A DNA stretch of 58,532 bases, taken from assembly GCF_000377945.1 (NCBI RefSeq), contig NZ_KB898936.1, positions 13,455 through 71,986 on the forward strand, in the 5' to 3' direction. The notes under the pieces are model-generated. The model was not told where the DNA came from and did not search any database. It saw only the letters and a list, made by a program, of their open reading frames with translations. Made by a program: the position numbers and the translations under genes. Shown here piece by piece: positions 35,357 to 37,752 of this stretch; position 1 is the stretch's first letter, and each line of letters begins with the position of its first letter. The stretch comes from Thioalkalivibrio sulfidiphilus. Its GTDB lineage: Bacteria > Pseudomonadota > Gammaproteobacteria > Ectothiorhodospirales > Ectothiorhodospiraceae.

Positions 35357-35384
35357 CACTTCCCACTCCTCACTTCTCACTTCT
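35357..35384. repeat. Four-unit heptamer array overlapping the FlhB-like stop codon
   Basis: CACTTCC, CACTCCT, CACTTCT, CACTTCT in register. On the minus strand these read AGAAGTG-type units, and the TGA stop (35372-35370) and the last four codons (RSEK) of the FlhB-like gene lie inside them. Confidence 0.92.
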
Positions 35385-35654
35385 GTACGGCGTTCTCCCG
35401 CTCAGGAAATACACGAACGCCAGCACTTCGGCGACCGCCACGTAGAGGTTTTCCGGGATTTCGTCGCCCAGGGGGACCTGGGATAGCGCCGCAGTGAGCA
35501 GGGCGTCCTCGTGCACGGGCACATCGTGTTCGCGGGCGATCTCGAGAATGCGTTCGGCCACCTGGCCGACGCCGCTGGCGGTGATACGAGGGGCGTTGCG
35601 GCCGCTGTAGTGCAGGGCCACGGCCTTGCGGGGTGGTTTGCGGCGTTCGCTCAT
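35370..35654 (-). CDS. FlhB C-terminal-domain-like protein (FhlB/FlhX type)
   Basis: The 94-residue soluble protein aligns with the part of FlhB after NPTH: KAVALHYSGRNAPRITASG, AREHDVPVHEDALLTAAL, LGDEIPENLYVAVAEVLAFV. There is no membrane part and no NPTH. Such detached domains (FlhX in Helicobacter) can replace the cleaved FlhB fragment in substrate switching. It overlaps the end of fliK (ATGA), so it is made with the hook-length ruler. The last residues and stop are encoded by a heptamer repeat, suggesting the original C-terminus was replaced. Confidence 0.9.
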   Translation of the reverse strand: MSERRKPPRKAVALHYSGRNAPRITASGVGQVAERILEIAREHDVPVHEDALLTAALSQVPLGDEIPENLYVAVAEVLAFVYFLSGRTPYRSEK

Positions 35655-36892
35655 GCGTGATCGTCCAGCAGGGGGCGCTGGGGCCTGGCCTCGGTCGGGG
35701 CAGGGGGGGCGCCGGCATGGCAGCCCAGGTCCTTCACCTCGAGACGCCGGTTCTCCAGGGACTTCATCAGGCGCGGCAGCTCGGCGCGGATGCGTCCCAC
35801 GGTCTCCTCGTTCTCCGCCCAGAAACGGGTGCGTACCTGATCGCCGGTAACAGAGATGCGTACCCGCACAGGCCCCAGTTCCGGCAGGTCCAGGGCGAAC
35901 TCTGCCCGCCAGCTGGCCTGTTCTTCAGCTTCCGGCTGATCCGGTTCTCGTTCCAGCAGCAGGTGCACCAGGTCGATGCCGTTGCCGCTTCGCAGGGGCA
36001 GTTCCATCAGCCAGCGGGGAAGCCCCGACTCCGAACTCTCCGCGCTGCTCCACTGGTGCAGTGCGAGCCGGGCCAGTGCCGATTCGGCCCGGCTGCGCAG
36101 GGTCTCCAGCAGCGCCTCGCGACCCAGCAAGGCCGGTGGGGTCTCGATGCGGGGCTGGGGCGAGGGTAAGGCGCCGGGTCTGGGCGGCGGTGTGTCCACG
36201 GGGCGGGTGCCTGGCAGGGCGGCGGACGGCGGGCCGGGAAGCGCGCGCAGCCGGGTGGCCAGGGACAGCAGGGCAGACTTGAGATTGGCGGCCGGGCCGG
36301 CGGCGCTGCCTGCCGCGACGGCGGCAAGGCCGGCCTCGTGGAACAGGCCCGAGGCCTGCACGGCCTGCCGCAGGCCCTCCGGGCGGGTGGCCTGATCGGC
36401 GGTGGGCAGTTGCCGGAAAAGCTGCTCGACGGCATCCCGGACACCGGGGGGCAACTCCGCGAGACGCGCGGGCTGTTGCTGCAGGGCCCAGAGGGCGGAG
36501 AGCAGGGCGGTCTGACCGCCCTGAGCGGGCAACAGGCTGGACAGCCAGCTGGCGGCCCCGGGGAGCGCGATGCCCGGGGCAGGGTGGGCTGGGGCAGGGC
36601 GGGCGGAGGCATCGGCTGCGACAGCCGGCAAGGCTGCGCCGCCGCGCTCCACCAGGGCCAGTACTGGCTGAGCGCCGGCGCGCACCACCTGCAGGGTCAG
36701 GCGGTTGCCCTCGGCGGGTGTCTGGGGGAGTTTCAGGGCGAGTTCCAGGCCGCCAACCCGCACCAGGGTGCCCTCGCCGGGCGGGGCAGGTTTCACCACG
36801 GTGGCCTGCAGCAGCTGACCCACCTGCCAGTCGAGACCGGCGGGACGGGGTGAGGCCAGGGTGACTTTCAGGGCCGGCGGGGGGATCTGCAT
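35651..36892 (-). CDS. fliK: FliK, flagellar hook-length control protein
   Basis: The 413-residue protein is Ala/Pro-rich through the middle, as ruler proteins are, and has the FliK C-terminal domain (WRAEFALDLPELGPVRVRIS, GDQVRTRFWAENEETVGRI, LENRRLEVKDLGC). It measures the hook and acts on FlhB to switch export. The ATG at 36892 gives MQIPPPALKVTLASP; the frame extends upstream only through a MITE. The MITE ends 5 bases from the ATG plus its TA duplication and appears to supply the ribosome-binding site. Confidence 0.88.
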   Translation of the reverse strand: MQIPPPALKVTLASPRPAGLDWQVGQLLQATVVKPAPPGEGTLVRVGGLELALKLPQTPAEGNRLTLQVVRAGAQPVLALVERGGAALPAVAADASARPAPAHPAPGIALPGAASWLSSLLPAQGGQTALLSALWALQQQPARLAELPPGVRDAVEQLFRQLPTADQATRPEGLRQAVQASGLFHEAGLAAVAAGSAAGPAANLKSALLSLATRLRALPGPPSAALPGTRPVDTPPPRPGALPSPQPRIETPPALLGREALLETLRSRAESALARLALHQWSSAESSESGLPRWLMELPLRSGNGIDLVHLLLEREPDQPEAEEQASWRAEFALDLPELGPVRVRISVTGDQVRTRFWAENEETVGRIRAELPRLMKSLENRRLEVKDLGCHAGAPPAPTEARPQRPLLDDHA

Positions 36893-36899
36893 CAGGCTA

Positions 36900-37162
36900 G
36901 TGTCCTGTCTGGTAAATATCTTGCCATTTAGCGCGGCTGCGCGGGCATGTGGCAAGGCACGCTTGTGCAGGAATGGCCACACCCATTTCAAGCAAGCGTA
37001 ACACCGCCACATGCCCGCACAGCCACGCCCGGAGGGAGCCCCGCAAATGCGCCAATGCGGCGTTGCACACCTTGCCAAGGGCTTGCCATTGCCTGCAGTG
37101 TGCGCCTTGCCTTGGCGCTTTTGCGGGGCTCTGAATGGCAAGATAGTTACCAGACAGGACAC
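36900..37162. mobile_element. 263-bp MITE, IS630/mariner type, inserted at a CTAG target
   Basis: Terminal inverted repeats of 29 bp (36900-36928 and 37134-37162) differ at one position, starting GTGTCCTGTCTGGTAA. They are flanked by TA on both sides within C-TA...TA-G, the TA duplication at CTAG that IS630-type transposases make. Inside are two further stems: 36935-36953 with 37006-37024 (18 of 19 paired) and 37036-37055 with 37112-37131 (about 19 of 20). No transposase is encoded. The element fills most of the gap between fliK and the phosphatase gene. Confidence 0.88.
36902..36907 (-). promoter_or_regulatory. Ribosome-binding site of fliK supplied by the MITE end
   Basis: On the minus strand CAGGAC from the MITE terminal repeat places AGGA 10 bases before the fliK ATG. 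No other Shine-Dalgarno-like sequence lies between the MITE and the start codon. Confidence 0.5.
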
Positions 37163-37275
37163 TAGTATACTGCGCGGTGGCCGTGCGGGGCAGTCAGGAT
37201 CCATGCCCTTGCAAAGCCGGGGCCCTGGTGTCATGGTGACGCGCGACTCACAAACCCGACAGGATTCGATCAACG

Positions 37276-37752
37276 ATGGTGAATGTGCTGTTTGTCTGCA
37301 TGGGCAATATCTGCCGCTCTCCCATGGCCCACGGCGTGTTCGAGCGGCAGGTGAATGAGGCGGGTCTGGGCCACCTGGTGCGCGTGGATTCGGCTGGCAC
37401 CCATGCCTATCACGTGGGATCCCCGCCCGATGAACGCGCCCAGCGCACCGCCATGAGCCGCGGTGTGGATCTGAGCCGGCAGCGGGCGCGCCTGCTGGAG
37501 GCCGATGATTTCGAGCGCTATGACTACGTGCTGGTCATGGACGAGGAGAACCTGCACAACGCGCTGCGCATCTGCCCCGAGGGGTATCGGGACCGGGTGC
37601 GCCTGTTGCTGGAATTCGCCGAGGCACGTGACGAGCGGGAGGTTCCGGATCCTTACTATGGCGGCAATGCCGGGTTCGAACGGGTGTTCGACATGGTCGA
37701 GGATGCGGTGGAGGGGCTCATGGCCCATCTGCGCCGGCAGCACGGTCTCTAG
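37276..37752 (+). CDS. Low-molecular-weight protein-tyrosine phosphatase
   Basis: The 158-residue protein has the P-loop FVCMGNICRSPMA (Cys8, Arg14) and the general-acid loop VPDPYYGG, the defining parts of LMW-PTPs. It would dephosphorylate phosphotyrosine or a related substrate in the cytoplasm. In exopolysaccharide loci such enzymes act on Wzc-type kinases, but none is nearby, so its substrate is unknown. The upstream region is interrupted by the MITE. Confidence 0.93.
   Translation: MVNVLFVCMGNICRSPMAHGVFERQVNEAGLGHLVRVDSAGTHAYHVGSPPDERAQRTAMSRGVDLSRQRARLLEADDFERYDYVLVMDEENLHNALRICPEGYRDRVRLLLEFAEARDEREVPDPYYGGNAGFERVFDMVEDAVEGLMAHLRRQHGL

Follow-up and report, generated by a model that had tools for sequence, protein, structure and literature searches.

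The region immediately upstream of fliK, the hook-length control gene, in Thioalkalivibrio sulfidiphilus carries a mobile element, namely a 263-bp IS630-type MITE for which no helper is visible, and both the reality of this insertion and its typing in an earlier note on this DNA are confirmed. As a whole, we read the locus with considerable confidence as the product of an IS630-type MITE mobilised in trans, with a body made of hairpin modules and an effect on fliK that is neutral to mildly repressive. On this reading, an IS630 transposase provided in trans would have moved the non-autonomous element from another site to a TA inside a CTAG, 5 bp ahead of the fliK ATG; the simplest timing is in the line leading to this strain, once it had split from the congener G004, and the helper IS630 would no longer be found in the genus. 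The body would not derive by deletion from the IS630 elements found but would consist of two head-to-head hairpin modules set between IS630 ends. In a fliK mRNA started upstream, the whole element would form a single long, two-armed stem that would lock the Shine-Dalgarno (SD)-like AGGA, hence a most likely neutral to mildly repressive outcome for fliK, unless transcription were to start inside the element or processing to open the stem.

In the 58.5-kb stretch of DNA analysed here, referred to as the window, the element covers positions 36900-37162, unstranded, between duplicated TA dinucleotides, with one CTAG at 36897-36900 on the fliK side (the TA duplication being 36898-36899) and another at 37162-37165 on the phosphatase side. 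Its terminal inverted repeats (TIRs), 36900-36928 on the plus strand and 37134-37162 on the minus strand, differ by 1 mismatch in 29, and the longer inverted repeat of 38 nt has arms that are 92% complementary; the minus strand of the left TIR carries the SD-like AGGA for fliK. Internally, two stems are each formed by arms of 23 nt that are 91% complementary, i.e., 36931-36953 with 37006-37028 and 37036-37058 with 37109-37131. As such, the length, the 29-bp TIRs with their single mismatch, the two large internal stems and the left end located 7 bases from the fliK ATG (36892-36890, minus strand), all of them put forward in the earlier note, were recovered at these positions. None of 100 shuffles of the window contained two matches to the 17-nt tip of the MITE within 2 mismatches. 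The element is short and without a transposase gene, the open reading frames of at least 60 aa touching it being of 61, 72 and 115 aa on the plus strand together with the open fliK frame on the minus strand. This last frame (35651-37273) runs through the entire element without a stop, as far as a TTG at 37273, and is therefore compatible with a longer, fused start, while the short start, MQIPPPA, is common to the relatives G004 and G003.

As for the neighbouring genes, fliK itself (413 aa, 35651-36892, minus strand; Pfam Flg_hook, E 4.8e-19) is followed downstream by a gene resembling the C-terminus of FlhB (35370-35654, minus strand; Pfam Bac_export_2, E 3.3e-20), and on the other side of the element lies a divergent gene for a low-molecular-weight phosphotyrosine phosphatase (37276-37752, plus strand; Pfam LMWPc). 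Using the phosphatase gene as query, the corresponding site was located in G004, where it is empty and reads ...GCATTTGTCTAGTGTACTG..., with a single CTAG, an identity of 92.8% and 95.9% on the two sides, and a fliK-phosphatase intergenic region of 118 bp versus 383 bp here. A relative lacking the element is thus uninterrupted at this point, and, as for the TA duplication in CTAG claimed in the earlier note, CTAG is found on both sides of the element and once in the empty site; CTAG being a palindrome, the empty site cannot separate a 4-bp CTAG duplication from a 2-bp TA duplication, which look alike. This empty site could be aligned in one relative only, G004, and the fliK start is separated from CTAG by the 4 bases CAGG here and TTGT there, so that the junction has changed further. 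With fliK as query, the named genomes gave no match, near records being possibly absent from that set. The gene is intact despite the insertion, with a dN/dS to G004 of 0.18 over 408 codons (0.06 for the phosphatase), values which include the time before the insertion.

The element is one of a family in its own genome. A BLAST search of this genome (G000; 3.05 Mb in 69 contigs) with the element yielded 34 rows distributed over 13 places, of which three have 75-76% identity, so other copies do exist, and these places correspond to 10 or 11 copies, because some pieces at contig ends belong to one copy: the pieces on C10 and C44 have a common flank, those on C48 and C45 are flanked like the two sides of a single copy found intact in G004, and C27 and C4 may hold the halves of another. 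Copies often lie at contig ends, as in C4, C27, C44, C45 and C48 of G000 and in several MAGs; assemblies therefore break inside them and copy counts are uncertain. Beyond the strain, matches to the element occurred in 8 of 40 genomes, i.e., the five genomes of the genus (own included), G005, G038 and G039; plasmid records gave no match either for the element at fliK or for the Pseudomonas one. G000 and G004 have three further insertion sites in common (L003/L036, L012/L138 and C48+C45/L134), from which it follows that the family moved before the two genomes split and, most simply, afterwards as well.

The IS630 type claimed in the earlier note is borne out by these other copies, the empty site, the CTAG target and ends common to IS630 elements elsewhere. 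A terminal-pattern scan of named genomes returned at least 119 stretches, many ending at contig ends. In L214 (Noviherbaspirillum malthae; 1168 bp) and L250 (a gammaproteobacterial MAG; 1152 bp), an IS630 transposase is enclosed by inverted ends of the CTAGTGTCCTGTCCCGCAAATAAC type, which differ from each other at 1 of 24 and 4 of 24 positions, respectively. Their transposases carry Pfam DDE_3 and match NCBIfam transpos_IS630 at 287 and 278 bits, respectively. With L153 (Aquabacterium; 3713 bp, judged by eye to have an IS630-like transposase frame and a second frame inserted), they make up the loci with an IS630-like frame between paired ends among the at least 119 pattern loci. L186 and L158 have distant end pairs, with no IS630 open reading frame among those listed, and were rejected as IS630 elements. 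Relatives of the L214 transposase were found at E 1e-10 in 11 of 116 genomes related to the window, and the end test applied to seven loci from this search was positive for three (L273, L274 and L283, from two genomes of the same family), with near-perfect TA-ended repeats and TAGTGT or TAATGT tips. An IS630 transposon reportedly prefers TA in CTAG, going by the title of the 1991 work of Tenzen and Ohtsubo, and the CTAG target fits IS630. The IS630-family element ISY100 duplicates TA (PMC2170065). Another CTAG/YTAR-targeting family, e.g., of the IS5 type, could have given the same picture through a 4-bp CTAG duplication, as does MITEPsy1 of Pseudomonas syringae, which duplicates CTAG or YTAA and whose IS5 assignment carries a question mark (PMC3189936), but elements with nearly identical ends encode an IS630 transposase, and we regard such an origin as very improbable.

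The helper itself is missing from view. An IS630 transposase with matching ends was found neither in the genome nor in the five genomes of the genus: none of these five, own included, holds a relative of the L214 transposase or a Pfam DDE_3 match. Among the matches listed, exact ends in G000, G002, G003 and G004 pair only at about 40-340 bp, and in 32 loci around unpaired ends, with about 2.5 kb examined on each side, no convincing partner at IS length was found, the nearest candidate, L087, having 9 mismatches in 26 at 972 bp, near background; in two of these loci, L086 and L095, a short partner is present. A MITE can outlive its helper and the absence of the latter from the genome was not counted as defining; we infer mobilisation in trans, because no transposase with these ends was found in the genus.

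Regarding the expression of fliK, the earlier note had proposed that the TIR supplies the ribosome-binding site and that the native leader was displaced. The first proposal stands in part. The minus strand ahead of fliK reads ...CCAGACAGGACACTAGCCTG-ATG; AGGA lies in the left TIR, 10 nt before the ATG, the TIR is the source of the only SD-like match at fliK, and the best pairing with the 16S tail amounts to -4.0 kcal/mol, versus +0.5 in G004 and -1.7 in G003; in a read-through transcript, though, this AGGA is paired in the TIR stem. As to the second, no good native SD was displaced, the two compared relatives having no comparable match to lose. From these values, it could be argued that the element was recruited, i.e., that the insertion was kept by selection for raised FliK translation thanks to a useful SD with a better pairing energy than in either relative, at 10 nt before the ATG of a gene that is intact and shows a dN/dS to G004 of 0.18. 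Yet this dN/dS includes time before the insertion, the arrangement is seen in one strain only, and -4.0 kcal/mol is ordinary with respect to the window median of -3.6 (26 long, uncurated open reading frames). Moreover, in the transcript started upstream, the predicted probability for the SD to be unpaired rounds to 0, and in four shorter modelled transcripts three of its four bases (A, G, G) are mostly paired with only the last A open, whereas the empty G004 leader is modelled as mostly open before the AUG. No sigma-70-like site (and no terminator) was found in 36800-37320, and sigma-54 and sigma-28 matches were no better than in shuffles. We therefore consider recruitment unlikely and the MITE a weak candidate as ribosome-binding-site donor for fliK; under the preferred reading, the models point to a likely effect ranging from none to mild repression, and the dampening of hook-length control suggested in the earlier note would be possible.

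While the single insertion is that of an ordinary MITE, its structured interior matters more. An 81-nt hairpin, whose stems covary and whose internal loop is conserved, is present there twice, the two copies being inverted relative to each other. A covariance model (R1; 81 positions and 22 pairs, of which 17 show changes in both partners) was trained on twelve cores taken from bacteria outside Thioalkalivibrio and selected once a shared motif had been noticed (14 non-redundant cores, L198 and L216 being left out). Applied to the 58.5-kb window at E up to 1, R1 returned exactly two matches, namely the MITE hairpins in opposite orientation: copy A at 36938-37019 on the plus strand (49.7 bits, E 8.9e-10) and copy B at 37045-37124 on the minus strand (51.7 bits, E 2.8e-10). 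At E up to 0.1, there were 17 matches in 40 loci and none in the IS630 loci L214, L250 and L153. In genome surveys limited to 23 to 32 scored candidates per genome, R1 had matches in 59 of 144 genomes related to the window (E 1e-4) and in 51 of 200 drawn across the phylum (E 1e-5), the own genome included in both. In the own genome, six module matches of 65-71 bits were observed outside the 13 BLAST places. Matches from outside Pseudomonadota, e.g., in an Elusimicrobia record (L175, 49.2 bits), all come from MAGs, so that a cross-phylum claim depends on correct binning.

In a held-out set of 59 matches from 36 loci, which were found by and aligned to R1 and are thus biased in favour of the model (L159 and L156 coming, besides, from MAGs that also gave training rows), standard pairs filled 93.7% of the pair cells versus 60.0% in shuffles, and the covariation score was 0.826 versus 0.206 in shuffles and at most 0.18 for slid pairs. 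Each letter of CAAGGCGC and GCAACGC is conserved in 51 to 59 of the 59 rows while the stems vary freely; as the motif had already entered into the choice of training cores, the stems provide cleaner evidence than the loop letters. Close pairs of modules were found in plus then minus order in 21 of 21 cases, the window's included, with a spacing of 25 to 45 bases in 20 of them and 91 in the other. Among the matches listed, the terminal-pattern scan gave 49 complete elements, of which 26 are 160-169 bp and 10 are 260-279 bp long; a loose motif count over these elements (46 of 49, against a shuffled mean of 15.6) proved too permissive and was abandoned for the covariance model. Covariance models of Rfam 15 had no match at gathering score in 11 loci. 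With the threshold relaxed to E up to 1, 36800-37300 of the window gave two miRNA matches, both far below their gathering scores, and 1340-1560 of L159 gave none. A description of the module, motif letters included, was not found in the open-licence literature, which is weak evidence of absence, and a term search of the main text of a 2024 review of prokaryotic MITEs found IS630, hairpins and phyla absent from it.

The usual view of bacterial MITEs is that they derive from insertion sequences by deletion. Here, by contrast, the interior is the common part and the ends vary. Tentatively, and with rather more doubt than belief, we suggest that an undescribed 81-nt module spreads via MITEs with exchangeable ends, in Pseudomonadota and apparently in other phyla, that its loop is recognised by a conserved cellular factor and that the head-to-head pair is the preferred working form; on this view, the conserved loop CAAGGCGC/GCAACGC within freely covarying stems would imply recognition by that factor as folded DNA or RNA. 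If a single hairpin is carried, in many genera, by elements whose ends belong to different transposases, something in cells must maintain the module, and if true, one name would cover perhaps many separately described repeats. Among known systems, RUP of Streptococcus pneumoniae is likewise short, with IS630-Spn1-like TIRs, a TA target and about 110 copies (PMC2229807, PMC3049150), but it is AT-rich, 107 bp long and accompanied by its IS in the same species, whereas the MITE at fliK is GC-rich, has no helper found in the genus and contains two inverted modules common to distant bacteria. Correia/NEMIS elements of Neisseria share TA ends, 24-bp TIRs and structured transcripts, for which RNase III cleavage is proposed, and are set apart by description, with sizes of 107 and 155 bp (PMC2229807). 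The IS630 elements L214 and L250 have nearly the same terminal repeats and CTAG ends but encode a transposase, and the hairpin module was not found in these loci at E up to 0.1. Finally, R6 of Pseudomonas fluorescens (177 bp with 34-bp inverted repeats) is close in size to the one-module Pseudomonas elements of 164-166 bp, a likeness in size as described (PMC2718517).

The variety of the ends is apparent in the 30 loci with the top R1 matches, of which 16 have the module enclosed by TA-ended inverted repeats and 10 by an inverted repeat that lacks TA at one or both ends. In the other 4 no ends were called, in at least one case wrongly, the end-finding having looked at the wrong place in some short loci, i.e., L305 (which has ends and equals L030) and probably L307, L308 and L321. 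Tips of the AGTG type, grouped by eye, are common to several loci (e.g., L304, L311, L317 and L319), those of the (T)AGGGAAACACTGAT.. type to many loci of one genus (the TA-ended call of L316 being the inner part of such an arm), and further groups comprise TAGGGCCTGTT.., the CAGTTGA type (L293, L294 and L310), TAACGCGGGTG.., TAGAGCTCATC.. and TAGTACTC..; two of these tips are repeated within their genomes. Among the matches listed, no autonomous element with AGGGAAACACTGAT.. or TAGGGCCTGTT.. tips was seen by eye, a weak negative. That the module resides in several transposase families is something we infer, because only TAGTGTC tips are tied to a transposase.

The two arms of an element also change together. 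Over the 38-nt arms of 17 window-type elements, there were 3.1 differences within an element versus 6.3 between elements (0 of 20,000 permutations as good), and for 13 elements of the second type 3.5 versus 4.0 (20 of 20,000), figures inflated by relatedness and obtained with 6 of 36 loci left out for want of clear ends; several tip variants do recur in the two arms of a single element. In inverted repeats, template switching reportedly homogenises arms and inverts spacers, as described in yeast (PMC8604942), hence covariation alone is no proof of a working RNA. This bears on the view that the structure is a selected RNA leader regulator of fliK rather than a mobile element there by chance. 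The fold of the fliK-strand element is indeed strong (-186.7 kcal/mol, z -11.8 versus 100 dinucleotide shuffles), and the module does combine covarying stems with a conserved internal loop. Against it, the genome has the same element at 12 further places, G004 has an empty fliK site, covariation can arise by template switching without RNA, and one copy, L004, has an inverted hairpin-B core; such a regulator is thus hardly credible, and a MITE that landed there by chance is the reading retained.

In L004 (G000:C10:99862-100138), the hairpin-B core is inverted with respect to the other copies, which fits, as expected, spacer inversion in an inverted repeat. Other variants were observed along the way. 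In a longer class (340 bp; L084 and L101), the loop of hairpin B contains an insert of about 71 bases that includes three small hairpins; this insert was found under both terminal-repeat types, and L143, L147 and L148 were assigned to this class by length only. A second module-bearing MITE of 233 bp, with TAGAAACGGCAGTTGACCG tips, is present in L293 (G000:C14) and L294 (G004). At the other extreme, minimal elements amount to about two terminal repeats back to back, i.e., L103 (42 bp) and probably L067.
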